The translations under genes and the position numbers were made by a program. This document shows, in pieces, positions 1 through 23,029 of a stretch of DNA of 64,000 bases. Positions within the stretch are counted from its first letter, which is position 1. Each line of letters starts with the position of its first letter. The notes below the pieces were generated by a model. That model was not told where the DNA came from, made no database searches, and saw only the letters and a program-made list of their open reading frames with translations. The DNA is from Marivivens geojensis (lineage in GTDB: Bacteria; Pseudomonadota; Alphaproteobacteria; Rhodobacterales; Rhodobacteraceae), in NCBI RefSeq assembly GCF_023540835.1, contig NZ_JALKCU010000002.1, forward strand, positions 1 through 64,000, read 5' to 3'.

Positions 1-3000
1 CCACCGATGAGGACACGGCTGTCACCATCGACGTGCTCGACAACGACAGCGATCCGGACAACCAGCCGCTGACCATCACCGAGGCGACGGTTCCGGCAGA
101 GCAGGGCTCGGTCGAGATCGTGAACGGTCAGCTGGTGTTCACACCTGCCGATGACTTCAACGGTGAGGCAACGATCAGCTACACGGTCTCCGATCCGGAT
201 GGGAACACGGACACGGCGACTGTTGTTGTGACGGTGAATCCTGTTGAGGATGCGCCGGAAGCGTTGGACGACACTGCGACCACGGATGAGGACACGGCTG
301 TCACCATCGACGTGCTCGACAACGACAGCGATCCGGACAACCAGCCGCTGACCATCACCGAGGCGACGGTTCCTGCCGAGCAGGGTTCGGTCGAGATCGT
401 GAACGGTCAGCTGGTGTTCACACCTGCCGATGACTTCAACGGTGAGGCAACGATCAGCTACACGGTCTCCGATCCTGATGGCAACACGGACACGGCGACT
501 GTTGTTGTGACGGTGAATCCTGTCGAGGATGCGCCGGAAGCCAACGACGACACTGCGACCACCGATGAGGACACGGCTGTCACCATCGACGTACTCGACA
601 ACGACAGCGATCCGGACAACCAGCCGCTGACCATCACCGAGGCGACGGTTCCGGCAGAGCAGGGCTCGGTCGAGATCGTCAACGGTCAGCTGGTGTTCAC
701 ACCTGCCGATGACTTCAACGGTGAGGCGACGATCAGCTACACGGTTGCTGATCCTGATGGGAACACGGACACGGCGACTGTTGTTGTGACGGTGACGCCT
801 GTAAACGACCTCGTTGCGGTGGATGACGTTGCCCAGACGGATGAAGATACGCCTGTAACGATTGACGTTGTGGCCAACGACCAGAACCCAGATGGCGGTA
901 CGCCGACTGTGATTGCTGCGACTGTACCAGCAGCTCAAGGCACCGTGGCAATTGTTGGTAATAAACTCGTCTTTACACCTGCTGCGAACTTCTATGGTGA
1001 GGCGACGATCGACTACACCATCGAGGACGAAGAGGGTGCGGTTGATGTGGCAAAAGTCACTGTCACCGTGAACAGCGTTCTTGAATCGCCGATTGCAGTT
1101 GATGATGTTGAAACGACTGACTTTGACACGGCAGTCACTATCGACGTTCTTGAAAATGACAGCGATCCAGATGGCACTGTCCTAACGGTGATAGACGCAT
1201 CTGTCCCTGATGTTCAGGGTAGCGTCGCAATCGTTGACAATAAGGTTGTGTTTACACCTGCAGCTGGCTTTGAGGGTGAGGCGACAATCAGCTATACCAT
1301 CGAAGATGCGGATGGTCTGACCGCTGATGCTGTTGTCACTGTGACGGTGAATGATGCTCCGCCGCCACCTCCGCCGTCGCCAGATGGCACGGTCGAAGGC
1401 ACCTCAGGCGACGATATCATTGACGATACCTATGCGGGCGATCCGAATGGTGATTTCGTTGATAATGATGACGCGATCCTGCCTGGCGATACGGGCGATG
1501 ACGACCTGATCTATGGCTATGAAGGGGATGATATTATCCTCTCGGGCGATGGGAACGATGAAGTCTACGGTGGCGTCGGCAACGATACGATCCTTGATGA
1601 AAATGGATCGGATACTGTGTTCGGCGACGAAGGCGACGATTTCATCGATACATCTGGTAGACAGCAGAGCCCAGATACAGCCTATCCTGGATTGTTCCCT
1701 GCTGACACTGATCCGCTCAATGATCGTGACACTGTCTACGGTGGTGACGGCAACGATACGATCCTGACGGGTGATGACAATGACACCATTCATGGTGGCG
1801 CTGGCGATGACTTCATCGATGGTGGTGTCGATGACGACGTCATCTATGGTGAAGATGGTATGGACACCATTATCGGTAGCGAAGGTGATGACCGGATCTA
1901 CGGCGGTGATGGCGACGACCTGATTTATGGTGGTTTGACGACTGATGTGCTTGACCTGCCCGATGATTTGGATGGTGACGGCGATAGCAACGACATCGGT
2001 GAGGATCTTGTAACCAATAACAACAAAGACGTTATTTCTGGTGGCGCGGGTAACGATACCATCTATGGCGGTGATGATGACGATCTAATCAGCGGTGGTG
2101 AAGGGAACGACTTTATCGATGGTGGCATCGATGATGACGTCGTGTTGGGTAACGCTGGCGATGACACATTGACCGGTGGTCAAGGCAATGACCTTCTCGA
2201 CGGTGGTGATGGCAATGACATCATCACGGGTGGAGATGGCAATGACAGGTTGCTTGGTGGCCTCGGCAATGACACCTTCATCGGTGGCAACGGCGGTGAT
2301 GTGGTCATCGGTGGTGAGGATGCGGATGGACTGGACATCGACGTTCTGAACCTGACAGGCAGCGGTGTCGATCACATCATCTACAATGATACCGATCCTG
2401 AAGCAGGCACCGTGTTCTTTAACGACGGTTCCACGATGACTTTCTCGGAGATCGAGAACGTTATTCCTTGCTTCACGCCAGGTACTTTGATTGCAACGCC
2501 GCGCGGTCAAGTTCCTGTGGAACAACTCCATGTTGGGGACAAGATCATCACCCGTGACAACGGCATCCAAGAGATTGCTTGGTTGGGTCAGAAAGAGATG
2601 CCGGGCAAGCAACTGATTGCGAACCCGCACCTCAAGCCGATCCTGATCAAAGCTGGTGCCTTGGGTAACGGATTGCCGGAACGTGATATGCTTGTGTCGC
2701 CTAACCACCGTGTTCTGGTCGCGTCTGACCTCACGCAACTCTATTTCGAAGAGCGTGAAGTTCTGGCTGCGGCGAAACACTTGGTCGGTAGCGCGGGTAT
2801 CCATCAGGTTGATGTGACCAACACGACTTACATTCACTTCATGTTCGAACGCCATGAAGTGGTGCTGTCGGACGGCGCATGGACGGAAAGCTTCCAGCCG
2901 GGTGACTACAGCCTCAAGGGTATCGGCAATAGCCAGCGGAACGAGATTTTCGAACTCTTCCCAGAGCTGAAAGAGAAAGCGGGCATTCAGGATTATCAAT

Positions 3001-3047
3001 GGAGGAGGTGTAAGTTAGGTATTTATTATCAATGGCTTGCGCAGTAA
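1..3047 (+). CDS. RTX/Hint secreted surface protein, 5'-partial, with island-derived C-terminus
   Basis: The reading frame is open from the window edge (codons in phase with position 3), so the N-terminus lies outside. From the left: tandem cadherin-like/Big_9 Ig-fold repeats of 93 residues (to about 1350), a Pro-rich linker near 1360-1380, glycine/aspartate-rich RTX calcium-binding nonapeptides of the GGxGxD type (about 1390-2330), then a Hint domain (about 2468-2960) that begins with Cys in CFTPGTLI and carries SPNHRVLV, as in self-processing Hedgehog/intein domains. Such proteins are usually exported by type I secretion and act outside the cell; that is inferred. The last 15 residues after GIQDYQ are foreign: they are encoded by the integrated element that begins at about 3001. 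The native C-terminus is at 22980-23029. Confidence 0.9.
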   Translation, partial: TDEDTAVTIDVLDNDSDPDNQPLTITEATVPAEQGSVEIVNGQLVFTPADDFNGEATISYTVSDPDGNTDTATVVVTVNPVEDAPEALDDTATTDEDTAVTIDVLDNDSDPDNQPLTITEATVPAEQGSVEIVNGQLVFTPADDFNGEATISYTVSDPDGNTDTATVVVTVNPVEDAPEANDDTATTDEDTAVTIDVLDNDSDPDNQPLTITEATVPAEQGSVEIVNGQLVFTPADDFNGEATISYTVADPDGNTDTATVVVTVTPVNDLVAVDDVAQTDEDTPVTIDVVANDQNPDGGTPTVIAATVPAAQGTVAIVGNKLVFTPAANFYGEATIDYTIEDEEGAVDVAKVTVTVNSVLESPIAVDDVETTDFDTAVTIDVLENDSDPDGTVLTVIDASVPDVQGSVAIVDNKVVFTPAAGFEGEATISYTIEDADGLTADAVVTVTVNDAPPPPPPSPDGTVEGTSGDDIIDDTYAGDPNGDFVDNDDAILPGDTGDDDLIYGYEGDDIILSGDGNDEVYGGVGNDTILDENGSDTVFGDEGDDFIDTSGRQQSPDTAYPGLFPADTDPLNDRDTVYGGDGNDTILTGDDNDTIHGGAGDDFIDGGVDDDVIYGEDGMDTIIGSEGDDRIYGGDGDDLIYGGLTTDVLDLPDDLDGDGDSNDIGEDLVTNNNKDVISGGAGNDTIYGGDDDDLISGGEGNDFIDGGIDDDVVLGNAGDDTLTGGQGNDLLDGGDGNDIITGGDGNDRLLGGLGNDTFIGGNGGDVVIGGEDADGLDIDVLNLTGSGVDHIIYNDTDPEAGTVFFNDGSTMTFSEIENVIPCFTPGTLIATPRGQVPVEQLHVGDKIITRDNGIQEIAWLGQKEMPGKQLIANPHLKPILIKAGALGNGLPERDMLVSPNHRVLVASDLTQLYFEEREVLAAAKHLVGSAGIHQVDVTNTTYIHFMFERHEVVLSDGAWTESFQPGDYSLKGIGNSQRNEIFELFPELKEKAGIQDYQWRRCKLGIYYQWLAQ
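33..869 (+). repeat. Three near-identical 279-bp tandem repeats (93-aa cadherin-like modules)
   Basis: Copies begin at 33, 312 and 591 (period exactly 279 bp) and differ by only a few silent or single-base changes, for example gtg versus gta at the first codon and gcgttg versus gccaac near the module joint. Two further modules (about 870-1350) are related in protein but clearly diverged in DNA. The identity suggests recent duplication or gene conversion. The array probably continues to the left of the window, and the copy number may be miscounted in assemblies. Confidence 0.9.
2989..3000 (+). other. attL core (left junction of the element)
   Basis: AGGATTATCAAT lies in the Hint gene codons for Q-D-Y-Q. 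It matches the anticodon-loop segment of the tRNA-Phe fragment at 22968-22979 except for one A/T. The crossover must fall within this block, since chromosomal coding sequence precedes it and element sequence follows it. A further copy of ATTATCAATGG at 3025-3035, just inside the element, repeats the junction sequence at 2992-3002. Confidence 0.85.
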
Positions 3048-3223
3048 TTTTTTTGGTGTGCGTGTAAGTGTGTTTTTAGTGTCATTTTGAGGGTAGGGCG
3101 GAAACACTGTGTTGAACACTGTGAATATTGACCAACAATAAAGTTACCCAACCACAGCAATTTTTGCAAATGCTAAGGTTGCAGGCTAACAACGATGTCG
3201 CCGCGGCCTAGTGAAAGCAATCC
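3048..3223. other. Element left-end noncoding segment with AACACTGTG motifs
   Basis: AAACACTGTGTT at 3102-3113 is followed by AACACTGTG at 3115-3123. A GTGTGTTTTT segment near 3067-3077 resembles one at the right end near 22864-22874. Together with the upstream TATCAATGGCTT (3027-3038), which recurs at 13733-13744, this marks the segment as a terminal control region of the element, possibly a recombinase or partition/replication protein binding site. The promoter of the following histidine kinase must also lie here, but no clear -35/-10 pair is evident. Confidence 0.5.
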
Positions 3224-5074
3224 TTGATGATTTTTAATACTACTATCAAAAAACTACTCGCTAGGATCGCAGCGTTCCTTTTTTTGGTGTGCCTTGCTGC
3301 AAAGGCTGTAGCTAACTCAGATCAAATTCAAGTTAGACACGCCGTGGGTGATTTCAGCATTGAGGAAGTTGTTAAATCTAGCGCTTCGTCATTCTCAAAT
3401 TTCAGCCTTGGTGAAAACCTTGGCTTTCAAACGGAACCAGTTTGGTTTCGCCTTGATGTTTCAAAAGAAACGGCAGTCACTGACCAGCACCTAATTATTA
3501 CGCCAGTTCACATCGACAGTATTACGGTTTGGGCAGGGGGAGCTGATGGATACGAGCAGATTCTTAATGCAGGGGATCAGTCAACATCACCCTTAAGCAT
3601 GATCCCGGACGGCTATACAGTCAGGGTCACAGATGATCAGTTTAATGAACCTATTTATATCAGGCTTGCGTCCCACAACGTCATTCATCCTTTTTTTGAG
3701 CTGGTGGGCGTTAACGAAGTCCGCAAAATGGCCAGTACATCTGTCTTCCTATTCTCTATTACTATAGCAATCACGGTGCTTTATTTTGCTTGGGCTGTGA
3801 GCGCAGCGATCCATAGCCCGCAGGCATTGATCTTTGTGTTTATTTTGAGATTGGTGCTGTTTGTGTTCACGTTCTCAATACATTCAGGACTCTGGCGCTT
3901 TCTGGTTGGCGGTGAAGAGCTGCCACCGCAGGATATGCTACACAACGTGTCTGGGCTGGCTTATATCACCATCGCCCAGTTGTTTGATTTAGCATTGTTG
4001 AGAACGCTTTATACTAAAAAAGCGATTAAGGCGTTTTTGGCGATTATTTTAATTAGTACGTTTGCAAAAGTGGGATTGTTTATCTCAGGCGAGGTGTCGC
4101 TTGCACTCACGATAAACAATACTTCAGCGCTTTTAACGCTTGTTGCTGGAGGATTCATGGTGCTCCTTCCGCGCCAGAGTGCAGAAGATAACTCGAAGAT
4201 CCAACTGTCTCGTACTGCTGTTGGTGCTTACTTTGCTCTGCAAGCGTTTCCGCTAATTGTTTTGGTCATTCTTACGTATCTTGGAAACAGTAACTATCTG
4301 CGTGTATTTGCCCTAATGTTCATCAACTACGCCTTGGTTCCTGGTGGGTTTATTGCTTACGCAATGTTTAGACAGCAACAGCGTGTCTTTCGTAGCAAGA
4401 CAGAATTAGAGCTATATGCAAAGCACCTGGCTGAGCTCTCGCGCCTTGAGCAGAATAAGCGGGTCGAAATGAAGAGGTTGTTGGAAACACTTGCTCACGA
4501 AATCAAAACTCCGCTAGCGACCTTGCAGATGGCTGAGGCAGTAGGCCGGATTGATCAAAAGCTTTTGCATAGAGCGACAAGCAGCATAGGAGCTGCTCTT
4601 GCTCAAATGAGCAAAGCTGAACGTATTGAACGAGGATCTTTCGCGCTGGATAAAGAAGAGTTGGCGTTATGCAGTCTCATTGACAAGGTGGTAGCAAATC
4701 TAGGAAGCACTGCAAAAGTGCAATGCGCTGAGACAGTCATACAGGCCGATTGGAATGCATTGTACATTGTGCTCACCAACCTTATCGGAAATGCAGAAAA
4801 CTACAAAGCTCCCAACACTCAGGTGTTTGTTCAGGTCGAGCAGAATGATGAACGTGTAACAATATTAATCGGAAACGCGTTAAGTAGACCGATCCGAGAG
4901 CCTGATCGGCTATTCGAAAAGTACTTCAGAGACCGAACGACTGCAAAAGAGCCCGGGACTGGCCTTGGATTGTATTTGTCTAAGTCTCTCGTCGAGGCCT
5001 TTGGCGCAAAAATTAAGATCGTCAGCAGTCAGGCGCAATTTTTAGTACAGCTAACGTTCGAGAAGCGAGTGTAG
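3224..5074 (+). CDS. 7TMR-DISM-type sensor histidine kinase
   Basis: The 616-aa protein has a signal peptide (about 1-31), a periplasmic 7TMR-DISMED2-like domain (about 35-165, with EPVWFRLDV and IYIRLAS), about seven membrane segments (about 170-385), then a HisKA domain with LAHEIKTPL (phospho-acceptor His425), and a HATPase domain with the N-box NLIGNAEN and the G-box GTGLGLYLSK. It should autophosphorylate at the inner membrane in response to an external, possibly carbohydrate-like, signal and pass phosphate to the regulator encoded 53 bp downstream. It is the first gene inside the left end of the element, and its AT-richer coding sequence differs from the core genes. The ligand cannot be told from sequence. 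Confidence 0.9.
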   Translation: MMIFNTTIKKLLARIAAFLFLVCLAAKAVANSDQIQVRHAVGDFSIEEVVKSSASSFSNFSLGENLGFQTEPVWFRLDVSKETAVTDQHLIITPVHIDSITVWAGGADGYEQILNAGDQSTSPLSMIPDGYTVRVTDDQFNEPIYIRLASHNVIHPFFELVGVNEVRKMASTSVFLFSITIAITVLYFAWAVSAAIHSPQALIFVFILRLVLFVFTFSIHSGLWRFLVGGEELPPQDMLHNVSGLAYITIAQLFDLALLRTLYTKKAIKAFLAIILISTFAKVGLFISGEVSLALTINNTSALLTLVAGGFMVLLPRQSAEDNSKIQLSRTAVGAYFALQAFPLIVLVILTYLGNSNYLRVFALMFINYALVPGGFIAYAMFRQQQRVFRSKTELELYAKHLAELSRLEQNKRVEMKRLLETLAHEIKTPLATLQMAEAVGRIDQKLLHRATSSIGAALAQMSKAERIERGSFALDKEELALCSLIDKVVANLGSTAKVQCAETVIQADWNALYIVLTNLIGNAENYKAPNTQVFVQVEQNDERVTILIGNALSRPIREPDRLFEKYFRDRTTAKEPGTGLGLYLSKSLVEAFGAKIKIVSSQAQFLVQLTFEKRV

Positions 5075-5127
5075 CATGCGTAGGAATATCAGCGTCATGT
5101 ATGGTAGGGCTGCGGCGGGAGATATGT

Positions 5128-5805
5128 ATGACTACAATAGCCGTTGTCGAAGATAATGATGATCTACGAGAGTTCACTGCACTTTTCTTAGAGCAGCATG
5201 GCTATCAAGTCTTGCCATGTGTCGACGCTGAAAGTTTCTTAGAGACCAATGCTATAATTGACCTGTTTTTAGTTGATATAAACCTTCCTGAAATGGACGG
5301 TTTTACCTTAGTGCGATCCATTCGGGAAAGTGATCCAAATGCGGCAATCATTGTTTTGTCGGCTCGCGATTGGGATGCTGACATTGCTATGGGGTATGAT
5401 GTTGGCGCAGATATCTATCTAACAAAACCTACTGATCCAAACGTGCTTTTGTCTGCGGTGCGACGCTTGACGCAGCGCAGCTCAGGGCAGACGGGTCGGT
5501 CTGGTTATCTCGAAGTTGATCGTGCTCAGCAGGTCATGTGCTTCAAGGCATCTTCCTGTTCCATCACGTCGAGTGAGCTAGCGATACTAAATCGCTTGGC
5601 GATTGCAGGGATACGTGGGCTGGAACGGTTCGAAATGGCTGAGGTGCTTGATTTAGACCTTGATAGCGGGTCGCGCAAAGCAATGGACGTACGTATCGTT
5701 CGTCTACGCAAGAAATTGGCATCAATTGGCTGTGCAAGAAGTGCATTGGAAACCATGCGTGGCTTTGGTTATCGGCTCAATTTACCAGTGCAATTTTCAA
5801 GGTAG
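5128..5805 (+). CDS. OmpR-family response regulator
   Basis: A 225-aa two-domain regulator: receiver domain with acidic pair ED at 8-9, phospho-acceptor Asp50 in LVDINLPEMDG and Lys in YLTKPTDP, then a winged-helix Trans_reg_C domain (about 125-222, with VRIVRLRKKLA and GFGYRLN). The start at 5128 is preferred over the in-frame 5101 ATG because GGGAG sits at a proper distance and the receiver fold begins at MTTIAVVED. It follows the histidine kinase on the same strand and is its probable partner. The targets are likely the lipoprotein and autotransporter genes just downstream; this is inference from position only. Confidence 0.9.
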   Translation: MTTIAVVEDNDDLREFTALFLEQHGYQVLPCVDAESFLETNAIIDLFLVDINLPEMDGFTLVRSIRESDPNAAIIVLSARDWDADIAMGYDVGADIYLTKPTDPNVLLSAVRRLTQRSSGQTGRSGYLEVDRAQQVMCFKASSCSITSSELAILNRLAIAGIRGLERFEMAEVLDLDLDSGSRKAMDVRIVRLRKKLASIGCARSALETMRGFGYRLNLPVQFSR

Positions 5806-6223: not shown

Positions 6224-7062
6224 TTGGGAAAAGTGATCATTAAAACCATCTAAAATATCAAATGCGAGTGCGACCAAAATAAACTTATGATAGCGCAGCG
6301 AAAGTTTCGCTGCGCGAAATAGCTATTTTGGTATTCCTACTGCCTGGCCGTGCTTTTCTTTTCCTCATGTACATCAATACGCCTGGTGGCTTGCGTAAAG
6401 CCATGCAGGGTATCAACCATAGATCTGTTCCTCGGTTAACCTGGACCTGGTCTTGAGTTTTATATTTTCGATGATCGGCGTTGGAGGAGTAATTCCCTCT
6501 CATTCCACGCCAGCCCCGACGTGGCGCTATCCGACAATGTAGCATATGTAGCACTTGCATTTTCGAGTTTGTTACTCACTCGGTATGAACAGCTTATTTG
6601 CAAATATTATTAATGAACGTAAGCGATTATTTGGATTGTATGGTCAGACGCTAGTTGTACCAGTACGCGGTTGCGGGAGCATATCAGCACCGAAGAACCG
6701 CAACAATGCAAAACATAAAGTCGGTAAAGCCAATAATTTTAAATTTGGAGATATCGGCGCGACTTTCCCTATGCTGTGCCTGAAAACGTGTCGCTATGTA
6801 GTACTGACCTGCTCCGCGTTGATCCTTGTTCGGCCATTGGGTGGGGTTAGAATAGCAATTGCAGCTATCGTCCGTGTATTAATTGGGCCACTTGCCTGTG
6901 GCTTCGAGTTAGTTGACTGCCATTACGACCGCTTGGGGCTTCGTCTCTGTTCGCTCACATTGGCACGCCATCAGCAAAAACCGAACCGGCCTTGTGCTTA
7001 TAGGTTCAGCGGCAATGTTTGCACAAATGCGGTTGGCCGCCTTTTCCCCTAGGATAATTATT
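6224..7062. other. 839-bp AT-rich gap without a convincing gene
   Basis: Short open frames exist on both strands, but none has a good ribosome-binding site, known motif or protein-like composition. The segment is likely to hold the autotransporter promoter and long leader. An 11-bp inverted repeat (GCGCAGCGAAA at 6293-6303, TTTCGCTGCGC at 6305-6315) followed by AT-rich sequence may end the upstream operon. It could also be the remains of a decayed gene. Confidence 0.5.
6293..6315 (+). terminator. Stem-loop after the lipoprotein gene
   Basis: The arms GCGCAGCGAAA and TTTCGCTGCGC are perfectly complementary. There is no strict T-run, but an AT-rich stretch follows within 15 nt. It lies 69 nt after the lipoprotein stop codon. 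A weak rho-independent terminator is the simplest reading; a protein-binding palindrome is the alternative. Confidence 0.45.
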
Positions 7063-10000
7063 ATGTGCGTACAAAAATTAGTACTATCAGTAGTGGTTGC
7101 ATTGGCTTCCATGTGGGGGGCTCAGGGGTTTGGCCTTCCCACAGATAGCGCGAGTTATGGCACTGAAGTCATTGTTGGCAGCTGTAAGGTTGAGAAGGAC
7201 TTTGAAAATAGTGGTGCTACCGGAGTCTTTCTTGTCATTGAAGGGAGTCGCAGATTTTCGGGTGGCTTTATGTACGAAGACCGTGACCTGATTGTTGAGC
7301 TTCCAGTTATTACAGAAAGCGACATGAGCACTTGCTTTGATGACTACATTGCAGGCTCGCTTGTGCAACAAAGCGTTGTCGCAACCAGTTTTGCAGCTCA
7401 ATCAAATATGGGCTTTGGGTATCGTTCGAATAACGGAAATTGGGTGCCCTATGTGATCGGTTCTGGCACGCTTGAGCCTCAAAGTGCTGATGCGCCCACT
7501 GAGTTGGTCGCCACGCCCGGTGACGAGGAGGTTTCTGTAGATTTCGTACCTCCGGCCAATACAGGTGATTCAGCTATTACTGATTACGAGTATAAGCTTG
7601 ATAGCGGATCATGGGTCAGCTCAGGCGTGTCCGCCAGTCCTGTTATCATCAGCGGGCTAATCAATGGTCGTTCTTATAGTATCAAGCTTCGGGCAGTAAC
7701 CTCCCCTGCCGCTGGGGGCGGCACAGAAACAACAGCCGTCATAAGCACTCCTGCCGCTGTGGAGCCACTTGAGCTTGTCTCCTCTTTACCCAGCGATAAT
7801 GCAACTGATATTGCAATTGACCAAGACATTGTTTTGACTTTTAGCGACGATGTGAGCGTGCAGCCGAACGCGCTTGCTCTTTATGATAGCTCAGATTCTG
7901 TGATAGATGCGGTGATAACGCTGTCAGGTCCAAATGTAACGATAAGTCCAACTAGCAATCTGAAGTATTCGGCTGGGTATTATATAAAAGTAGCAGCTAA
8001 CGCAGTTGAACAATCGAACGAAACGATACCTGCCTTCGCAGGTATTGCAGACAAAACCACACTTAACTTTACCACAGCTGCTTCGCCGTTGCTCGATGAT
8101 AGTCGCTCAGTTGATGAGGTTTTCGGGAATAATGGGTGTATCATTTCGAAATATTTTAGCTCTGGTGAGCAATCAGCATGGGTATATTTAGATACTGGCA
8201 ATTCAATTTTATACGATAGCGATGCTGGTTACTGGGACACAGGGAGCAAAAAGCAATCTGGCAGTCCTATCGATAAGTATGTGATTGCAGAATGCTTAGG
8301 GACCCAGGGCGAAAATATTGCGGGGCTGGTTCAAAAAGGTGCTGATGCATCAAGTTTTGGAGAGCAAGAGTACATGGGCTTTGCTTTCACTCTCCTTAAG
8401 GAAAGTGGCGGCTTGGGTGTTGGTCTCCACGAATACTTTGTAGGATCAGCACCGGCCACGGTTACTACACCTAGTGTGCCGACGAACTTTAGCGCGATCG
8501 GTGGTAATGGTGAAATTTCTGTATTATTTGCAAGTCCTGTAAGCAATGGCGGCGCTAGCATTTCGGATTACCAGTATGAGATAGATGGTAATGAGACATG
8601 GATCAGTGTTGGAACAACAACATCGCCTTTTGTGATTACAGGATTAGATGTCGGTGAGAGCTATGCAGTGAAGTTGCGCGCGGTCAACAGCATTGGTTAT
8701 GGATTAGCAACTGACGCTGTGACCAGTACAACTTTAAGCAAGCCTACAGCACCAACTGACTTAATTCCATCTGCTGGGGACAGACAGGTAACACTCGCAT
8801 TTACAGAGCCATCAGATAATGGTGGATCGAGTATTACTGACTACGAGTATGAGCTGGACAGTAGTGGTACGATTGTGAGTGCTGGTATTGTCACTTCTCC
8901 ATTAGTAATTACTGACCTTATTAATGGAAGGACCTATTCTATTAGGCTCCGTGCTAGGAATAGTGTCGGCGGTGGTGTTGTATCGGAAGCTGTGACATTT
9001 ACGACTTCCGTAGTTCACTCCCCACCAACAAACTCAGCTCCAGTTGCAGACGCAGGTCCTGACGAAACAGTAGCTTATGCTGCAACTGTGACGCTGGATG
9101 GTTCAGGATCGTCTGATGCCGACAGCGGCGACACGTTAACCTATGCCTGGACGCAAACGTCGGGCACAACTGTGACACTGTCCAGCGCGACGGTACAGCA
9201 ACCCACATTCACAGCTCCCACACTCAACGTTGGTGATGCAGATGCTGTGTTGGTGTTCTCGCTTGTGGTCAATGACACTACAGTCAACAGCGCAGCGGAT
9301 ACGGTCACGATTACCGTTGAAGCCCCATTGCCTACACCAGCGTCAGAATTTGCAGAACATGAAGCAGAAATCCGTAACACGCTAGTTGGTGACGCCTCTC
9401 GCAGCCTGCGTAGCTCGGTCAGTGCAAATCAACGCATGACCCAAAGTGCTCGCAGCAGGTTCATCAGTGTTCGCCAAACCCAAGCGCGTGAAGAAGACGT
9501 CACACGGGCTCTGATCCCCTTCGACGTTGATGGCAACTTCACCCTGTCTGAGACTGGCTTAAGCACTGCTGGTAACTTCTTCCAGCAAGTTGGCAATGCA
9601 GAGGGCACATACCGCCGTTTGTTCTTTGGTGACTTTGATGTGCAGCACGATAATGACACTGACAGCACCACTGCGACGCTGACAGGCCGCATGGCTTGGG
9701 AGCAGATGACGTCTGAGCGAACCATGCTGGGCTACTTCATTGGTGGTGAACTGGCTACCAGCACCATCGGTGGCAGCTTTGAAGGTGATCAGGACCGCAT
9801 TGGTGTCACGGCTGGGGGCTATGTTGTGCATAAGCTGTCCGAGCAGGTTTACTTCGATGGCTTTGCAAGTGTTGGAGCAGGTCGCAACAACCTTGAGATG
9901 GCCAATGACACCTTGGCGCTTGAGAGTGAGTACACCACGCAAACAGCAACATTGGGTGGGGCAATCACAGGCGTTTACAGTCAAAAGGGCTATGACTTTA

Positions 10001-14716: not shown

Positions 14717-15535
14717 ATGTCTGTTCAAAACGACCTCAAAAACAATATCCAAAAACGCCTTGATGCTATGCATGCGGCACGGGTGACATGGGAAGAAGGC
14801 ACATTGCGTGCCGCCAACGAAGAGCTCTACGCCATTCTTGAAGGTGTCTATGCGCTTTACGCTGAGCTTAAAGCTGAAGTGGGCAAACGCCGCGCATTTA
14901 CAGCACTGCTCACAGATTTGGAGATCAAAACTCAAGCCAATACCAGCCTGGCATTAAAGGTGGTTCGCTACGTCTTTGCAGGGCAAGGCCGCCGTGAAGT
15001 TGCCTACTCAAGTGTCATATCAATCGCTCACGACATGAAGGGGCCAGATCAGAGCTTCACCAGCTACGTGCAGGAATGTGGTGGCATTGAAGAAGTGCGC
15101 CGTGTGCCCAAATCCACAAAATCAGCGACCATGTCTAAAGAAGATTTTAAGAAGCTGGCGCTTGAGGGTCTGCAGGAAGTGCAAGTGGGCGTGAGCACGT
15201 TTGATCTTCCAACGTTCATCCAGCCCAATACCGATTACGAAGAAGACTATGCGGTCGCGCTGGTGCGCTGCAATGACAATGGCACAGGCACGATTGTTTA
15301 CGGGTGCAACGAAGCGGGCATCATTGACGCTGTCTTGGTATCATCGGGTAAAGACTTGGATGAACGCGCTCAAGAAAGCCTCGCCAAGCTTGACGCAGGT
15401 GATCTGGCAACCAAGCGTGCACGTGATGTGCGTGAGTTTGCGTCCAAAATGATCCGCGTTGGATCAGGTGCACAAGTCAGCGTGTCTGGCGGTGGAGTGC
15501 GCACAAACGGCGCAGCAACCCATACCTATGGATAA
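14717..15535 (+). CDS. Hypothetical protein, first gene of the AAA+ operon
   Basis: A 272-aa protein. The N-terminal half is helical and probably coiled-coil (about 1-80); the middle is rich in charged residues with KSATMSKEDFKKLALEGLQEV; the C-terminal part is mixed with a glycine/serine-rich tail. GAAGGAG lies six bases before the ATG at 14717, which makes this start better than the upstream ATG. I do not recognise the family. It lies 67 bp before an AAA+ ATPase gene on the same strand, so it may be a substrate or adaptor for that ATPase. Confidence 0.7.
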   Translation: MSVQNDLKNNIQKRLDAMHAARVTWEEGTLRAANEELYAILEGVYALYAELKAEVGKRRAFTALLTDLEIKTQANTSLALKVVRYVFAGQGRREVAYSSVISIAHDMKGPDQSFTSYVQECGGIEEVRRVPKSTKSATMSKEDFKKLALEGLQEVQVGVSTFDLPTFIQPNTDYEEDYAVALVRCNDNGTGTIVYGCNEAGIIDAVLVSSGKDLDERAQESLAKLDAGDLATKRARDVREFASKMIRVGSGAQVSVSGGGVRTNGAATHTYG

Positions 15536-15602
15536 AACTAACGGCGAGTGGGGCAGTCATATTTTGCCCCACTCCAACTACATGCATCCAAAGGAGCTGA
15601 GC

Positions 15603-16244
15603 ATGTCATTTGATCTTAAACACCTACCGCGCGGCTTTGACGATTTGGTCATTGCGGACCCGCTAAATGCCAGTGTCGTTCGCTCATATTGTGAGCTGCC
15701 ACCCGCCAAGCCTTTGTTGCTCGCAGGCCCACCAGGTGCAGGCAAGACAGAAGCGGCACGTGTGATCGCTCACAGTTACTTTAAGCATCACAATATTCAG
15801 CACATACAGTGGGAATTTAATGCTGCCAGCCTTGGTAAAGACTATGACGCCAAGATCATGTCTGAGGTAAACTATCAGATGTTTGGCAATCCTGACAAAG
15901 CCATGATCGTCATCAACGAGATCGATGAGATGGACCTACGCACAGTGCAGCCCAAGTTCCGCGAGTTTATGGATAGCAAACGGCATCTGATCCGTTTTGT
16001 GGCCACGACCAACCACAAGAGCCGCATCATGGGTGCCGTGCTCAGCAGGTTCCGCGTGATTGACCTAGACCCGCCCAGCAACCTTGATTGGGTCGATCGT
16101 GCAAAGGCTATCTTGGAAGCCGAGGGGCTGACCCCGGCAAGAGCTGATGTTGAGCAGATGCTGCAGAGCTTTCAAGGCAGCGCACGCGACTTGGTCGACT
16201 TACTCGAAGAGACGGTTATAGCCAGCAAAGCGTTAGCGTCATGA
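15603..16244 (+). CDS. AAA+ ATPase, clamp-loader-like
   Basis: A 213-aa single-domain AAA+ protein. Walker A is GPPGAGKT (42-49). The Walker B region is IVINEIDEMD (about 102-111), with Asn-Glu in place of the usual Asp-Glu start. Sensor 1 is FVATTNHKSRI and a candidate Arg finger is in LSRFRVIDL. The fold order and size resemble the ATPase part of RFC/DnaX-type clamp loaders. AAGGAG precedes the ATG at 15603. It ends by TCATGA overlap with the next gene. Within a mobile element carrying a Rep-like protein, a role in element replication is plausible but not shown. Confidence 0.75.
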   Translation: MSFDLKHLPRGFDDLVIADPLNASVVRSYCELPPAKPLLLAGPPGAGKTEAARVIAHSYFKHHNIQHIQWEFNAASLGKDYDAKIMSEVNYQMFGNPDKAMIVINEIDEMDLRTVQPKFREFMDSKRHLIRFVATTNHKSRIMGAVLSRFRVIDLDPPSNLDWVDRAKAILEAEGLTPARADVEQMLQSFQGSARDLVDLLEETVIASKALAS

Positions 16245-16972
16245 CCAATGCTTTAGACACATACAACAAATGCATCGCAGCGCTTCATCTAACCTGTCAG
16301 ATCGCCAACGAATACGATATGCGGCTGTGGCATATTGTTGAAGAGGAGGTGCCAGCTTCACATGCTGACCTTGATAGCCGTGATTACGCCTGTGAACTGG
16401 ACAGCGCTGTGTCTAAGATACCTTTTGACAGCAAAATCAGTTTAAGACCCCACAGCCTCATGCAAAAAATCGATGACGAGGTTTATCTTGTAAAGCTGCA
16501 GTCGACGTTTCGCTTTGCTGATAACGTTCATGACTATTTTACCCTCAATGGCCGTTCAGACCTATTTGACGGTTCGTTGGAAGAGCTGACTGCGACGTAT
16601 GCAGCGCCAGCTGTTGTTTTGGGCGCACTTGATCACGCCCTCTATGTTTCTAACAAAGCTGAACACAAAGACTTCGAATTGGCTGGCTTTTACGAAAGCC
16701 ACCTTCGCGACCTGGCACAAGAGCGCTTTGCTGAGTTTGCGGCGCTACTGCCTTGGCTTGAGCATTTTTGGACACGGCTAAGTGCTTTCAAAGCAGAACC
16801 TCAGTTTGCACATTTAGTAAAACAGCTGCAGGTGATCTTGCCCGCAATTGATCAAGTGCACTTGTATGACTTCGCCAAGTACAGAGTACTGCTCAAGATG
16901 GCGGGGGATTTCTCGCCCTTGGTCAATCATCTGCAATTGGCACAGCATCAAGTGGCAGTGAGCACGCCTTAA
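16241..16972 (+). CDS. Hypothetical protein coupled to the AAA+ ATPase
   Basis: A 243-aa, mostly helical, acidic protein without recognised motifs. The start codon overlaps the ATPase stop (ATGA, 16241-16244), so the two are translationally coupled and probably work together. It may be a partner subunit. No signal peptide or membrane segment is visible. Confidence 0.7.
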   Translation: MTNALDTYNKCIAALHLTCQIANEYDMRLWHIVEEEVPASHADLDSRDYACELDSAVSKIPFDSKISLRPHSLMQKIDDEVYLVKLQSTFRFADNVHDYFTLNGRSDLFDGSLEELTATYAAPAVVLGALDHALYVSNKAEHKDFELAGFYESHLRDLAQERFAEFAALLPWLEHFWTRLSAFKAEPQFAHLVKQLQVILPAIDQVHLYDFAKYRVLLKMAGDFSPLVNHLQLAQHQVAVSTP

Positions 16973-17167: not shown

Positions 17168-17734
17168 ATGCGTCAAGCACAGACATTGAACGAGGCGCAG
17201 CTGCGCAGGGTTATACAGTATTGCCGCAGCAGGCGTCATCCAACACGGGATGAAACGATTATACTCACAAGCTTCTATGCAGGGCTGAGGGCCAAGGAGA
17301 TTGCAGCGCTCACAGTTGGCAATGTGTTTGATGAAGCGGGCAACGTGCGTGAGCAGTTCATTCTCAGTGCAGCACAAAGCAAGGGTGGGCACACACGCAC
17401 TGTGTATCTCAACCAGCGTTTGCGTAAAGCACTTGGAGACTATGGTGCGATCAAATACTTGGGCGACCCACAGCGCCCACTGTTCGAGAGCCAAAAGGGC
17501 GGGCACTTCTCAGCCAACACCATGTGCCAGCTGTTCTTGGATATCTACAAAGCGGTAGGGCTCAAGGATGCTTCAAGCCATTCGGGAAGGCGCACTTACA
17601 TTACGCGGTTGGCCAACAAAGGCGTAGGAGTGCGTTTGTTAGCTGAATTGGCGGGGCATTCGCATATATCGACTACTCAGCGGTATATCGACGTGAATGC
17701 TGAACAGTTGAGTGAAGCGGTGGAGCTGCTGTAG
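17168..17734 (+). CDS. Tyrosine recombinase, catalytic domain only
   Basis: A 188-aa integrase with the complete catalytic set: Arg41 (YAGLRAKEIA), Lys71 (SKGG), His137-x-x-Arg140 (HSGRR), His163 (GHSHIS) and nucleophile Tyr172 (TTQRYI). It lacks the N-terminal core-binding domain of full-length phage integrases, as do other short alphaproteobacterial recombinases. AGGGG is 8 bases upstream of the ATG. It may resolve or invert DNA of the element, or be left from an earlier insertion; the GC-rich LysR/EamA pair begins directly after it. Confidence 0.85.
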   Translation: MRQAQTLNEAQLRRVIQYCRSRRHPTRDETIILTSFYAGLRAKEIAALTVGNVFDEAGNVREQFILSAAQSKGGHTRTVYLNQRLRKALGDYGAIKYLGDPQRPLFESQKGGHFSANTMCQLFLDIYKAVGLKDASSHSGRRTYITRLANKGVGVRLLAELAGHSHISTTQRYIDVNAEQLSEAVELL

Positions 17735-17830: not shown

Positions 17831-18790
17831 TCAGCCAGAAATGGTGTCAGCACTGATGCTCAAGATTTCGCTTCGAAGCCAATTTCGCAACGCACTGATG
17901 CGTGGGTCGTCTGCCTCGCCATCCCGATAGACCAGATCGTAGCCGCGCCCTGCAGGCAGTGTGATGTCGGGAAAAAGCGCCACCAGTCGCCCTGCGGAAA
18001 TGTCGTCCGTTACAAGGACGCTGCGCCCCAGAGCCACGCCTTCACCACGCAAGGCGGCTTCGATGACAAGACTGCCATGGCTGAGCGTCGGCCCCTTGCG
18101 ATGGTCCCCTGCTACACCTGCGGTGGCGAACCATCGTTCCCAGTTCGGCAGGCGGCGATCATCGTGAAGCACCCGCTCCTCCCGGATCAGGTTGCAGGCC
18201 AGCAGGTCGGCGGGGGTGGCGATGCCTCCCACGCGCGCCCGATAGTCCGGCGCGCAGACAGGCGCGATCGTCTCGTCCAGCAGGCGTTCGCATGCTGCGC
18301 CGGGGTAAGGACCGTTGCCGTAGCGGATCGCCGCATCGACGCGTCCGTCGGTCAGGTCCACGTTGATGTCGCTCACGTCCAGCCGCACATCGACCTCGGG
18401 CATCTGTTGCATCAGACCGGCGAGGCGGGGGGCAAGCCATCGGCTAAAGGAGACGCTGGTCGTGAGGGTGAAACGCGTGCTGGTGTCCCTGGCGCGCAGG
18501 CGCTCGGCTTCTCGCGTCAATTCGGCAAGGCTTCTGCTGACCACCTGATGAAGGGCCGCGCCTTCCTCGGTCAATGCCAAGCTCCGTGTCATCCGGCGAA
18601 ACAGTCTGACGCCAAGATCGTCTTCAATCGTCCTGATCTGGCGGCTGACCGCGCCGGGAGTTACGTTCAGCTCCGCCGCCGCCAAGGCCATACTGAGCAG
18701 CCGTCCGGTCGCCTCGAAGGCTCTGAGCGTCTGTAGCGGCGGGGGCAATGCGGGCATCCTGGGCCTCATGATTGATCTGAGCGCAATCAT
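17831..18790 (-). CDS. LysR-family regulator (GcvA-like)
   Basis: A 319-aa LysR protein (longest start; Met8 or Met12 are also possible): winged HTH (about 15-75, LRAFEATGRLLSMALAAAEL, TPGAVSRQIRTIEDDLG) and a substrate-binding domain (about 100-310). The pattern SMALAAAELNVTPGAVS is that of the GcvA subgroup. It is divergent from the EamA transporter gene (81 bp between starts), which it probably regulates. Its GC content is visibly higher than that of the surrounding element genes, which suggests separate acquisition. Confidence 0.9.
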   Translation of the reverse strand: MIALRSIMRPRMPALPPPLQTLRAFEATGRLLSMALAAAELNVTPGAVSRQIRTIEDDLGVRLFRRMTRSLALTEEGAALHQVVSRSLAELTREAERLRARDTSTRFTLTTSVSFSRWLAPRLAGLMQQMPEVDVRLDVSDINVDLTDGRVDAAIRYGNGPYPGAACERLLDETIAPVCAPDYRARVGGIATPADLLACNLIREERVLHDDRRLPNWERWFATAGVAGDHRKGPTLSHGSLVIEAALRGEGVALGRSVLVTDDISAGRLVALFPDITLPAGRGYDLVYRDGEADDPRISALRNWLRSEILSISADTISG

Positions 18791-18871: not shown

Positions 18872-19789
18872 ATGTCTGACGCCACGATCACGCCAACATC
18901 ACTCAACGTCAGCCGCATCACTTTGCTCAGCGTGGCCGGGATGCTGCTTCTGGCGGTGATCTGGGGGCTGTCCATCCCGATCACGAAGCTCGGCCTTGAG
19001 ACCATGCCGCCGATGGCGCTGACTGCCCTGCGGTTCGGTGTCGCTGTGCCCTTCCTGTTTCTCTTCGCGATCGGGCGTCACCGCATTCCCCTGCGCGTCC
19101 TGCCCAAGGTCGCCGCCCTTGGATTGCTGGGGATCGGCGTCGGCCAGGTGTCCCAGACTTTCGGCATTGCAGGGGCGTCTGCCTCTGTCAGCACGATCAT
19201 CTCGGCGATGATCCCGATCTTCATCGTGATTTTCGCGGCCATTCGTCTGGGGCAGTCCGTGTCCCTGCGGCAGAAACTGGGTCTCGCGGGAGCCTTCGGT
19301 GGCATCGCCCTTGTCGCGCTGGATCGTGGCGGGGCGGCTGCCGGAGTCGTCGAAACCACACTCGCGGGCGCAGCCCTCGTCCTGCTCTCGGCGCTGACCA
19401 TTGCGTTCTACTATGTCTGGAGTGTGGAGCAGACCAACCGCTACGGAACAGTTACGGTGGCAGCGTGGAGCACTCTGGCGGGCTTCCTGGCCATCGTGCC
19501 ATTCGCCCTGCACGAAGCCGCCACGACGCCGTTCGCAGTTGAGCCGGAGGCGATCGCGTCGGCGGTCTACCTTGGACTGGCCGTGACTGCCGCGGGGCTG
19601 TTCCTGTGGCTCTGGTTGCTGCGCACCATCCCGGCCCGCGTTGCGGCCAGTGTCCAGTTCCTCCAGCCGGTCTTCGGGATCGGGGCTTCGGCGGCGCTCT
19701 TTGGTGACCGTATGGGCGGTCTCTTTTTGATCGGAGTTGCGTTTGTTCTTGCCGGGGTCGCGCTCACCGTCATCACGCAGCGAAAGTGA
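18872..19789 (+). CDS. EamA/DMT-superfamily transporter
   Basis: A 305-aa membrane protein with ten predicted hydrophobic segments and two EamA repeats (about 20-150 and 165-300). GGGGGG precedes the ATG. DMT transporters export or import metabolites such as amino acids, but the substrate cannot be predicted. It is paired with the divergent LysR gene and shares its high GC content. Confidence 0.9.
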   Translation: MSDATITPTSLNVSRITLLSVAGMLLLAVIWGLSIPITKLGLETMPPMALTALRFGVAVPFLFLFAIGRHRIPLRVLPKVAALGLLGIGVGQVSQTFGIAGASASVSTIISAMIPIFIVIFAAIRLGQSVSLRQKLGLAGAFGGIALVALDRGGAAAGVVETTLAGAALVLLSALTIAFYYVWSVEQTNRYGTVTVAAWSTLAGFLAIVPFALHEAATTPFAVEPEAIASAVYLGLAVTAAGLFLWLWLLRTIPARVAASVQFLQPVFGIGASAALFGDRMGGLFLIGVAFVLAGVALTVITQRK

Positions 19790-19878: not shown

Positions 19879-21120
19879 TCAGTCATCCTCACTCTGGCGA
19901 TCTTCAAAATCATCCCTGCTCAACTCATACCTCTTGCCCGTGAGCATGTCCTTCTTCAAGCGAGGCGTAAGATGACTGTAATGCCGCTCAATCATGCCAA
20001 TGCTGGTGCCCATCTGAACAGAGAGTGCATGTATATCCATCCCATCGTTAAGCAGCGCAAAGGTCGCATAGGTGTGGCGTAGGCTGTAGAGGGTGCGGTT
20101 CTGCCCTGTGCGCGGACATGTGATCAGCCCTGTGTCTGTAAGGAACTTGCGGAACGTCTGGTGGATGTTCTTGCTGACAGTGCCATCGGGCAGTCTAAAC
20201 ACAGGCAGATCAACACGCTGCTTGAGCAGGTCTTCAAACGGGATGTGGCGTATGTCCTCTGACCGCTCGTGTATGCGCTTTAGGTAATTGATGGTACCAC
20301 TGCGACAGATAATATCCCTGCGCCCAGTTTTGCCTGAGACGCTCATCTCCAAATACTGCAGATCCTTTTCTTCAAACAGCGTCACATGCTTCCACTTGAG
20401 GTTTAGCGCCTCCGTGCCGTGCCGCATGCCCGTATTGGCCATGATCAACACATAGTCCCGCATAAGGTGCCGCATGTCTGTGGGCTTGCCTGCTTTGCCT
20501 ACATTGATCCAACTGGGCAGCTTGCGGATAAGTGTAGCGTACTCCTCACGGGTAAAGTCAGGACGGCGTTCGCTCTTTTCACCACGATTCACCAGCAAAG
20601 GCACATTCTTGTGCGCTAAAAATCCTCGCGCCACAGCTTCATCGAACACGCGGTTCATAGCGGAGTTATGGGTATTCAAAGTAGATGCCTTTGGCTCACG
20701 CCCCATCTTAGCCCGCCGCCACTCGTAGAACTGCTGGATTTTCTCATAATCGATTGAGGTCACGTACTGTGCGCCAAAGAACGGGATCAGATAGCGTTCG
20801 ATGCAGACGATGTAGTCACGGTACACCTTCTTGCCCAAGCCCGCGTCCAGCTGTTTGCGCATGTCCACAATCGCCAGTCTTGCCACGTCAGAGAATTTCT
20901 TAGTGACAATGGGCAGATCGTTTTTGTGGCGGAACTTGTATTCGAGGAATGTGTCGCGGGCGTATTCTTTAGCTTCAGAAAGGTCACGCTTGCCTGTGCT
21001 GATGCGGATGGTGTGCCCATCGATATTAAACGATGCTTGCCAGCGCTTGCTGCGCTCACGCCGGTACACACGCACCTCGCCGTCCAGTATCAGATGTGTG
21101 TCATCACGCAGTTGCCGCAT
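19879..21120 (-). CDS. Phage-type site-specific integrase of the element
   Basis: A 413-aa tyrosine recombinase: N-terminal arm-binding-like part (1-70), core-binding domain (about 75-175), catalytic domain with Arg233 (NTGMRHG), Lys264 (SGK), Arg348-His349 (YSLRHTYAT) and Tyr381 (ERHYSHL). The usual His at the start of the third motif is Ser/Tyr (YSLRH), which is a tolerated variation. AAGGAG lies six bases before the ATG. It lies about 1.8 kb from the right junction, whose attP has the tRNA-Phe 3' half, and is the best candidate for the enzyme that integrated the element. Confidence 0.9.
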   Translation of the reverse strand: MRQLRDDTHLILDGEVRVYRRERSKRWQASFNIDGHTIRISTGKRDLSEAKEYARDTFLEYKFRHKNDLPIVTKKFSDVARLAIVDMRKQLDAGLGKKVYRDYIVCIERYLIPFFGAQYVTSIDYEKIQQFYEWRRAKMGREPKASTLNTHNSAMNRVFDEAVARGFLAHKNVPLLVNRGEKSERRPDFTREEYATLIRKLPSWINVGKAGKPTDMRHLMRDYVLIMANTGMRHGTEALNLKWKHVTLFEEKDLQYLEMSVSGKTGRRDIICRSGTINYLKRIHERSEDIRHIPFEDLLKQRVDLPVFRLPDGTVSKNIHQTFRKFLTDTGLITCPRTGQNRTLYSLRHTYATFALLNDGMDIHALSVQMGTSIGMIERHYSHLTPRLKKDMLTGKRYELSRDDFEDRQSEDD

Positions 21121-21333: not shown

Positions 21334-22344
21334 ATGTGTGCCTCCCTCTTCAAAACCATTTCTGTGTTCTTTGCGGTCGTTGTAACATTTTCTTCCTCCG
21401 CGTTCGCGGGCGAACAAGCGAGGTGTGTCCAAAGTGAATTGGCCAACCTAGGGTTCCAGCCTGGACCTGCCGACGGAGTGCTGGGGCGCAGGTCCTTCGG
21501 TGCAGCAAGCCAGTTCCAGGAAGAAGCTGATATCGATCTGCCTGAGCTGACCAAAGACAGCGCTGAACTATGGTGTGAAGTACTCCGTGAGTTCTCTACT
21601 AGTCCTACTGCAATGGCGATAAGGGACCAAACACTCGCTTTTGAAGAAGTGAGATGGAATGGCGCTGATCCGATATATGAAGACAGTGTCGTCACTTTCG
21701 CGCTTCAGTCAGGGCAATGTGGCGCGAGAACTTACGGAGACGGTCGAGGAGAGAGCGACTGCAATGGAGGCAGGGTGCGTTCTCAACTACAGTCGCCTGA
21801 TACCGTCAGAGTGAACAGCGAAGTTGAGTACTACTTTGAGTTCTTCATACCTGACGACTTCTCGTATTGGGGGGATCAATGGTACCCTTCTGGCTCTCGT
21901 CTTCTGATCGCCGAATGGAAGCGAACCCAAGGCATAAAGAACCATATCTACGAGATCCTTCTGGATAATCGTAGAGGGGTCACATTCGAACGGGAGACTT
22001 GCATAACTAGTGACCACTACGGGAAGTGGAACTCGTTCTCCCTACGCATAAGGTGGTCTCGGGGAGACGATGGATATCTTGAAGCCCGCTGTAACGATCG
22101 ATTGATACTAGAGCGTCGTGGCGATCAAACAGTTATCCCGCCAGACTGTGACACAGACTACAAGCTTCAATGCGAAGTCCGGCACCAACGTCCGAATGCA
22201 AACATTCAGTGGGCTATTGGCCCAAACTTCAGCGGGTACGGACGCGACTATGAAAGGCTCGGAAAGAGCTCTCCCTTTGCTCCGTTCCCACCAGACGGAA
22301 TAGAGATCAGGGTAAGAAATCTCTATGTCGGTGGCATTCAGTAG
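21334..22344 (+). CDS. Secreted protein with peptidoglycan-binding and lyase-like domains
   Basis: A 336-aa protein: Sec signal peptide (1-25, ending SSAFAG), a PG_binding_1-type motif (LANLGFQPGPADGVLGRRSF, about 36-58), then a jelly-roll domain (about 105-336; VEYYFEFFIPDDF, WYPSGSRLLIAEWKR, WNSFSLRIRWS) resembling the polysaccharide lyase family of the heparin-lyase fold (PF14099). It may cleave a polysaccharide in the periplasm or outside. The upstream control region (21121-21333) is shared with the divergent integrase. The ribosome-binding site is weak. Confidence 0.7.
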   Translation: MCASLFKTISVFFAVVVTFSSSAFAGEQARCVQSELANLGFQPGPADGVLGRRSFGAASQFQEEADIDLPELTKDSAELWCEVLREFSTSPTAMAIRDQTLAFEEVRWNGADPIYEDSVVTFALQSGQCGARTYGDGRGESDCNGGRVRSQLQSPDTVRVNSEVEYYFEFFIPDDFSYWGDQWYPSGSRLLIAEWKRTQGIKNHIYEILLDNRRGVTFERETCITSDHYGKWNSFSLRIRWSRGDDGYLEARCNDRLILERRGDQTVIPPDCDTDYKLQCEVRHQRPNANIQWAIGPNFSGYGRDYERLGKSSPFAPFPPDGIEIRVRNLYVGGIQ

Positions 22345-22933
22345 CCCTAATTAATCTCCCGGCAATCTCCGCCTACAAGGAAGCACCTAGAGCAAACTCA
22401 CATTCAGTGTAGCCTGATGGCTGCGATTAGCGCTGAGAATCAGGCTTAGTGCGATTCAACCCGGCATACCGAAATAGCCTCTCAACAGGCTCCGTGGCTT
22501 GCCCTAGTGGCGATCCGAACATGACCTTAGCCCATCACTCAAGGTCCAAAGCTGCCGTTCGTCGCGGTAGGCTTAAACGTCAGGTTGGGGCCGATAGCAT
22601 CAAGCACTACCCACATGCCAAGCGCCAACCCAAAATAGGCAGCAAGCAACAAATACAGCCAGTTCCAAAGCTAGGTTTACGTGCGCAACGCCACTGACCG
22701 TAAACAGTGTTCTTGGCAACAACCTCAAACAGTGTGTTGGAAGACTGTGTTATAGAACTTGCCTGCAACACAGCAGCCAACACTGTGTCTCAACACACAA
22801 ACCCCAAACACTGTGTTCAACATAGCGATTCCGCTCATAAACACGGCAAAAAGTGTGTTTAAGGTGTGTTTTTGATTTACGCAACTTATGCGCGTGACGC
22901 GCTAATCTAAGCCATTGTTTTTGTTTGTAAAAA
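22345..22933. other. Element right-end noncoding region with palindromes
   Basis: No convincing gene in 589 bp; an 82-codon open frame at 22449-22697 lacks a good ribosome-binding site. An 8-bp hairpin (22411-22418 with 22439-22446) may end the lyase-like gene. The last 250 bp hold degenerate and full copies of the element's motif: AAACAGTGTT at 22702-22711, CAAACAGTGTGTT near 22726-22738, CCAACACTGTGT near 22777-22788 and CAAACACTGTGTT at 22805-22817, then GTGTGTTTTT near 22864-22874, like the left end. Confidence 0.65.
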
Positions 22934-22979
22934 TGGTGCCCAGGGGCGGATTTGAACCACCGACACGAGGATTTTCAAT
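22934..22979 (-). pseudogene. 3' half of tRNA-Phe (GAA) carried by the element attP
   Basis: Read on the minus strand the segment gives the anticodon loop TTGAAAA (anticodon GAA), the 3' side of the anticodon stem, a variable loop, a T arm (GGTGG-TTCAAAT-CCGCC), acceptor 3' strand and CCA. The sequence to the right of 22979 is Hint-gene coding DNA, and no D arm or 5' acceptor strand is present. So it is a fragment, not a working tRNA. It is what an integrase specific for the tRNA-Phe 3' end would carry on its attP so as to rebuild the gene after integration. Confidence 0.85.
22968..22979 (+). other. attR core (right junction of the element)
   Basis: AGGATTTTCAAT, the plus-strand view of the tRNA-Phe anticodon arm. 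It matches attL at 2989-3000 except for one base. The next base to the right begins the displaced Hint-gene end. Confidence 0.85.
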
Positions 22980-23029
22980 CCGCTCGTCGTGCGCTGAAAA
23001 AACACGAGGCCAAACTTCTGGTCCGTTAA
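22980..23029 (+). pseudogene. Displaced native 3' end of the Hint gene
   Basis: In the frame continued from 3000 (codon completed by the shared T), this reads S-A-R-R-A-L-K-K-H-E-A-K-L-L-V-R and a stop at 23027-23029. This is the usual basic C-terminal end of rhodobacteral Hint proteins. It has no start codon or ribosome-binding site of its own and is separated from the rest of its gene by 20 kb. Confidence 0.9.

Follow-up and report, generated by a model that had tools for sequence, protein, structure and literature searches.

The window analysed here is a stretch of 64,000 nucleotides from Marivivens geojensis (assembly GCF_023540835.1, contig NZ_JALKCU010000002.1, positions 1 to 64,000), in which the gene of a Hint_2-domain protein is interrupted by an inserted element of 19,979 bp, measured core to core. 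The element is almost certainly one that targets tRNA-Phe and has integrated at a secondary attB site within the last codons of the Hint gene. This reading rests on the empty site in a same-genus genome (G117), both junctions, the tRNA-Phe half carried at one end of the element, the habit of the integrase family of residing at tRNA-Phe, the free primary site of the genome, and the fact that no other non-tRNA site in G117 matches the core as well as the Hint site does.

The 5′ part of the interrupted gene (3–2988, plus strand; 5′ end off the contig) lies in an open frame of 3–3047 and encodes repeat domains, RTX-like repeats (repeat types assigned by eye) and a Hint_2 domain (PF13403, E 2.5e-59), which is complete at 2466–2906 (plus strand, profile positions 1–147 of 147). 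Near-identical 12-bp cores bracket the element, namely AGGATTATCAAT at 2989–3000, which is the chromosomal allele and the same as the empty site in G117, and AGGATTTTCAAT at 22968–22979, which by comparison with tRNA-Phe is the allele of the element and the tRNA. The Hint frame continues past 3000 through a foreign tail of 15 codons to a stop at 3047 (3000–3047, plus strand), and the chimeric protein ends in QDYQ-WRRCKLGIYYQWLAQ-stop, its last 16 residues being exchanged for 15 foreign ones. The displaced 3′ end of the gene, comprising the rest of S, then ARRALKKHEAKLLVR and a stop, is found at 22980–23029 on the plus strand, and its equivalent adjoins the Hint domain in G117.

For the comparison with G117, each flank was aligned separately to the contiguous Hint gene of that genome. 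Window positions 1000–3000 align to positions 35–2035 of the reverse-complemented G117 locus (L022), while the window from 22968 onward aligns from position 2024 onward, and the two alignments overlap by exactly 12 bp. The uninterrupted Hint protein of G117, which is 99% identical to that of the window over 174 residues, ends in SARRALKKHEAKLLVR (longer end, QDYQSARRALKKHEAKLLVR). Moreover, contig C8 of G117 is collinear with window positions 1–3000 and 22968–37844, about 18 kb, with nothing in between. Left of the junction, 141 of the final 150 bp are identical to G117, as are 79 of the 80 bp that start at 22968, and identity falls to background just inside the element (27/100 and 33/100 on the two sides). 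The original prediction, made from the sequence alone, that an element splits a Hint-domain gene is thus borne out by a collinear, uninterrupted locus. Both cores lie where it had placed them, the chimeric end with 15 foreign residues is read directly from the frame, and the G117 counterpart of the 50-bp fragment that it had taken for the displaced gene end comes right after the Hint domain. Element-free relatives do not already carry the foreign tail, an ARRxL-type tail being present in 23 of the 24 Hint loci scored, all but the window's own. The element, its junctions and the displaced gene end therefore stand, but the earlier interpretation was incomplete, having overlooked the tRNA-Phe half, the integrase crossover core and the secondary nature of the site. 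The restoration of the frame upon excision, which it had pointed out, holds for conservative site-specific recombination in general and implies no special device here.

The right end of the element carries the 3′ half of a tRNA-Phe(GAA) gene, 48 nt on the minus strand at 22934–22981, of which 22980–22981 also fit the Hint gene. This half matches an intact host tRNA-Phe gene on contig C12 at 48 of 48 positions, and a search of the genome with the junction sequence returned only the window and this one intact gene. ARAGORN reported no tRNA anywhere in the 64 kb of the window, and Rfam gave no match in window positions 1–26000, the tRNA half included, as expected because only half a gene is present. 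The primary site is free: the tRNA-Phe locus of the genome contains no element and, along 15.6 kb, runs collinear with its G117 counterpart at 91.7% identity, with 7 gap openings. The window copy does not lie between the tRNA gene and its fragment, as a tRNA island would, and the claim made here is accordingly that of a secondary-site integrant.

The choice of the Hint site is mirrored in its resemblance to the anticodon core of tRNA-Phe, a 14-bp sequence that reads GGATTGAAAATCCT. Scanning G117 for sites with at most 2 mismatches to this core gave 28 sites, comprising the tRNA itself (0 mismatches), the Hint site GGATTGATAATCCT (1 mismatch) and 26 others (2 mismatches each). The Hint site therefore shares 13 of 14 bp with the core and is the sole one-mismatch site in G117 apart from the tRNA. 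Among Hint homologues, of which 30 were fetched and 24 scored (L021–L044, with L045–L050 left unscored), the 22 others (L023–L044) show 4–11 mismatches over the 14 positions at the same codons. Given this difference, the putative pseudo-attachment site is, among the genomes compared, present only in the lineage that comprises G117 and the genome of the window, and the element occupies it. With the pattern reversed as a control, 2 sites were found in G117 and 6 in genome G000, versus 28 and 26 for the pattern itself; no claim about chance is drawn from this control, since its words are not frequency-matched. By a rough calculation, a random 14-mer would have about one site with at most one mismatch per genome of such size.

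Comparison with tRNA-Phe and with the ends of related elements points to a 7-bp crossover region at 2993–2999 on the minus strand, TTGATAA in the attB allele, which is equivalent to the anticodon loop TTGAAAA. In the proposed mechanism, a tyrosine integrase would exchange strands within this region, pairing TTGAAAA of attP with TTGATAA of the Hint attB. The mismatch would then be sorted between the ends, the chromosomal T (tRNA strand) staying at the left junction and the A of the element at the right. The single base by which the cores differ is consistent with such an attB/attP mismatch in the crossover region, and the most fitting reading of the repeats is a tyrosine-integrase crossover core, not a target duplication.

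The integrase presumed to act here is a 413-residue tyrosine recombinase encoded at 19879–21120 on the minus strand (PF00589, E 8.4e-7; phrog_1, E 8.4e-42), whose family is found mostly at tRNA-Phe. Residues R233, K264, R348 and Y381, which we take to be catalytic, are invariant across 7 aligned integrases. The genome_contigs collection holds 52 loci related to this integrase, and their record titles point to roseobacter-type genera, to Rhodobacteraceae or Paracoccaceae bacteria, or to metagenome-assembled genomes (MAGs) that are assigned only at the level of class, phylum or domain. A match at E <= 1e-30 was present in 13 of 248 sampled genomes of the window's family, the window's own included. 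The search for tRNA-Phe genes covered 30 genome entries, equal to 26 distinct genomes (four pairs are the same genome by their coordinates), and the integrase search covered 27. Counting genomes with an integrase relative at >=64% identity and an intact tRNA-Phe gene found, and leaving out the window's genome, G117, and G281 and G283 (no intact tRNA-Phe found), 23 genomes remained. In 15 of these 23, the intact tRNA-Phe gene is followed downstream, at no more than 100 kb and on its own contig and strand, by the integrase.

Similarly, by our count, 16 of 43 fetched regions with a tRNA half lie downstream of the intact tRNA-Phe gene on its contig and strand; the remaining ones are on other contigs, many after an element-like end as judged by eye. 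A single tRNA-Phe contig carries two halves in G282, and one carries three in G294; in four loci (L053, L054, L056 and L101), the far end of one element meets the near end of another across a single tRNA half. These halves and junctions show tandem copies. Loci L173–L175 were excluded as poor matches (23, 37 and 35 of 45). As for Nereida ignava (G278), eight tRNA-Phe 3′ halves were observed (contigs C12, C15, C17, C18, C20, C24, C32 and C47; L139, L152–L156, L164 and L169), most of them behind a family-like end by eye, together with several integrase copies; apparently, these are tandem copies of related elements that the draft assembly has split up. In other collections, no integrase relative was found in 50,697 phage records and none was confirmed in viral_contigs, the plasmid collection gave only distant relatives in 6 records at <=32% identity, and a PDB sequence search with the integrase gave no match.

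Several observations weigh against the integration of a tRNA-Phe element at a secondary site. Only a single empty-site genome (G117) was compared base by base, and it diverges by 8–14% at the DNA level here, so that the insertion is left undated within a series of strains. A circular excised form was not observed. In the integrase, Y345 and T372 seem, by eye, to be placed where histidines are usual. Regarding the family habit, 8 of the 23 genomes have no integrase downstream of tRNA-Phe on one contig, and G279 enters the 15 through a 112-residue integrase fragment at a contig end. Furthermore, the integrases of G288 (89% identical) and G045 (66–67%) are on long contigs away from tRNA-Phe, and four more full-length copies at 66–67% identity (G284:C79; G292:C2, C21 and C32), which were not counted, are off the tRNA contig. 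Contig breaks may explain several of the 8 exceptions. The G045 copy and the further 66–67% copies of G292 sit in longer open frames of 530–545 codons and may represent a subgroup with another site.

Among other explanations, the Hint gene might be the regular preferred target of the integrase, with the tRNA half as a relic. The close core match (13 of 14 identical) and the single copy of the integrase in the window's genome, where it is the only match at E <= 1e-20, would agree with this; however, in 15 of the 23 genomes with a relative, the integrase lies downstream of tRNA-Phe, each of the 22 further Hint homologues scored has 4–11 mismatches to the core, and 23 of the 24 scored Hint loci keep their tail. 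A regular Hint target is thus very improbable. An insertion of a transposon or composite element with a 12-bp target-site duplication would account for the near-repeat on both sides of the element, but the single-base core difference mirrors that between the Hint site and tRNA-Phe, a 48-nt tRNA half stands at one end, and the tyrosine recombinase of the element has relatives at the same tRNA, with the family ends speaking against a duplication as well; such an insertion is more improbable still. Finally, although the 48 bp common to the element and the tRNA-Phe gene could invite an assembly artefact, in which an element really residing in tRNA-Phe was joined to the Hint gene via the shared core, there is hardly any chance of this, as both ends lie in the Hint gene and share only about 12–14 bp with it, the tRNA-Phe locus is intact, collinear with G117 and element-free, and contigs C11 and C12 are large (799 kb and 310 kb).

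Integration at a secondary site is also in keeping with the ends of the element, which resemble those of its family. The far end (3001–3250) and the near end (22680–22933) align with family ends over about 130–220 bp, the resemblance covering the first ~130 bp at the far end, and both hold candidate integrase arm sites according to motif counts. Counts of the motif GTGTTT/AAACAC are 2 and 4 in the terminal ~250 bp at the two ends, that is 8.0 and 15.7 per kb versus 1.24 per kb in the interior, the end motifs having been picked after the ends had been inspected. These repeats are candidate arm-type integrase sites. The words CACAGTGTT / AACACTGTG at 22680–22934 and 3001–3250 were also observed, two per stretch, at ~8 per kb compared with 0.15 inside.

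Two further tRNA-half regions look ectopic, L180 from a Yoonia MAG and L147/L183 from Marimonas lutisalis. In L180 (~16985; Yoonia MAG GYT0_bin.1), a near end that is 82% like that of the window is preceded by genes of chromosomal type instead of a tRNA 5′ half, and the region is probably a second natural ectopic insertion. Its empty site was not found in the 60 genomes searched, in which the flank is conserved only to ~175–195 bp before the junction. In L183 (~2550; contig C13 of Marimonas lutisalis), an element end with a tRNA-Phe half adjoins non-tRNA sequence; the region contains transposase-like open reading frames (ORFs) by eye, and the intact tRNA-Phe gene is on another contig of >1 Mb.

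As for gene content, recurrence across the 52 integrase loci was determined by locus comparison, and the counts are lower bounds, as many loci are short. The left part of the element consists of cargo identified by Pfam, namely a sensor histidine kinase with a 7TMR-DISM extracellular domain (3224–5074, plus), a response regulator (5101–5805, plus) and a large surface-type protein with fn3/PKD domains (6913–10386, plus), part of which recurs in L064, L077 and L079. L064 is the G288 locus (contig C1:486497), where the 89% identical integrase is on a 1.19-Mb contig and no tRNA-Phe half was found. The middle part contains mostly recurring genes: an ORF in 5 loci (10661–11023, minus), a DUF6626 protein in 12 (11177–11779, minus; Pfam), an HUH-like protein in 7 (11652–12281, plus), an ORF matching phrog_31551 in 12 (12699–13157, plus), a DUF3768 protein in 11 (13150–13500, plus; Pfam), ORFs in 7 (13750–14529, minus) and 10 (14624–15535, plus), and a clamp-loader-like AAA ATPase in 10 (15459–16244, plus; Pfam, PHROGs and NCBIfam), followed by an ORF seen in 1 locus (16241–16972, plus). 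A second, stand-alone tyrosine recombinase of 188 residues, which comprises the catalytic domain only (17168–17734, plus; Pfam and PHROGs), recurs in 25 loci; it is up to 98% identical in relatives and lies on the strand opposite to the integrase in all 25 loci holding it. The right part again carries cargo assigned by Pfam, a LysR regulator (17831–18790, minus) and an EamA transporter (18872–19789, plus), which are of higher GC content (about 63% locally at the LysR gene), as well as a polysaccharide-lyase-like protein beyond the integrase (21334–22344, plus).

The HUH-like protein is a candidate replication or mobilisation nuclease, with an HxH motif invariant in six aligned sequences. Its structural model, of moderate quality (predicted local distance difference test score 68), has as best fold match the SIRV1 ORF119 protein (2x3g), a weak match (E 8.7e-3) with none below 0.001, and the modelled HUH role is suggestive only; there was no PDB sequence match and no relative in the plasmid collection. 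No relaxase, coupling protein or type IV secretion gene was recognised in the 18 element ORFs searched with Pfam or the 10 searched with NCBIfam. A prophage was considered as well and is unsupported, with no phage structural match in the 18 ORFs by Pfam or in 10 of the 18 by PHROGs, and no integrase relative in the phage records searched. PADLOC, run on 10 proteins, matched only the AAA protein and the histidine kinase, in each case weakly and in part.

For the host, the insertion means that the ARRxL...HEA-type tail is lost from the Hint protein while the Hint_2 domain remains complete. The ARRxL part is kept in all scored Hint loci other than the window's own, and a role of this conserved C-terminal tail in secretion or processing would be a guess. 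A Hint query gave 6 matches in the genome, five besides the window gene, so the loss of the tail may be tolerated.

Taken together, the element may belong to an undescribed Rhodobacteraceae integrative family, characterised by a tRNA-Phe integrase, the 188-residue recombinase, the HUH-like nuclease and the clamp-loader-like ATPase, that stacks at tRNA-Phe and leaks naturally to next-best sites, a proposal that we put forward tentatively, at somewhat less than even chances. If it is true, the specificity of the integrase and the fate of ectopic copies could be read from sequenced genomes. In the literature on roseobacter and Rhodobacteraceae tRNA-gene islands and on tycheposons, with limited coverage of subscription papers, no description of the family was recognised, and no paper on DUF3768 or DUF6626 was found. 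The main text of a Nereida ignava genome paper contains none of the terms 'genomic island', 'integrase' or 'mobile' in a term search (PMC4770636). Such insertions likely fall into an annotation blind spot, with a tRNA half that ARAGORN and Rfam leave unreported and a 50-bp gene end 20 kb away.

Among the islands collected by Islander, 2083 of 3919 have anticodon-centred att sites and 3760 carry a 3′ fragment (PMC4383910). The window element is like them in its tyrosine integrase, carried 3′ tRNA fragment, probable anticodon-loop crossover and family tandem arrays, but the window copy is away from its tRNA gene, and a finder that pairs tRNA genes with fragments would therefore probably not bracket it. 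Tycheposons, originally described from Prochlorococcus, and additive flexible genomic islands of aquatic bacteria such as Methylophilaceae are likewise tRNA-associated, with a tyrosine recombinase and cargo, and additive islands are marked by repeated tRNA ends, as is the family of the window element; in contrast to it, they use another tRNA and other hosts (PMC10872708), and the likeness lies in these general features. SGI1, too, can use a specific second attB similar to its first one, and the element forms tandem arrays. Its second site is intergenic and is used when the first is deleted or, in the wild type, together with the first (PMC2297512), whereas here a coding gene was struck and the first site is empty. 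ICEBs1 resembles the window element in that its primary site is a tRNA gene, inverted repeats flank a 7-bp crossover, certain secondary sites carry few mismatches, and the two ends come to differ at the mismatched position (PMC3715440). It differs in being conjugative, no conjugation genes having been recognised in the window element, and in that the secondary insertions of ICEBs1 come from laboratory experiments. ICEBs1 uses its secondary sites at ~10^-4 to 10^-3 of the primary one even with the primary present, and such insertions were argued to be selected against (PMC3715440). Excision from the ICEBs1 secondary sites analysed was reduced or eliminated (PMC3715440), and, by analogy, excision of the window element, which would restore the Hint gene, may be impaired. 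Natural cases such as the Hint insertion reveal which secondary-site insertions persist. While secondary-site integration is well known from SGI1 and ICEBs1, the window element is an unusually clean natural case, as all the pieces are visible in nature: the occupied site, its empty counterpart in a relative, the unoccupied primary site, a near-match unique in the related genome, and what became of the core mismatch.

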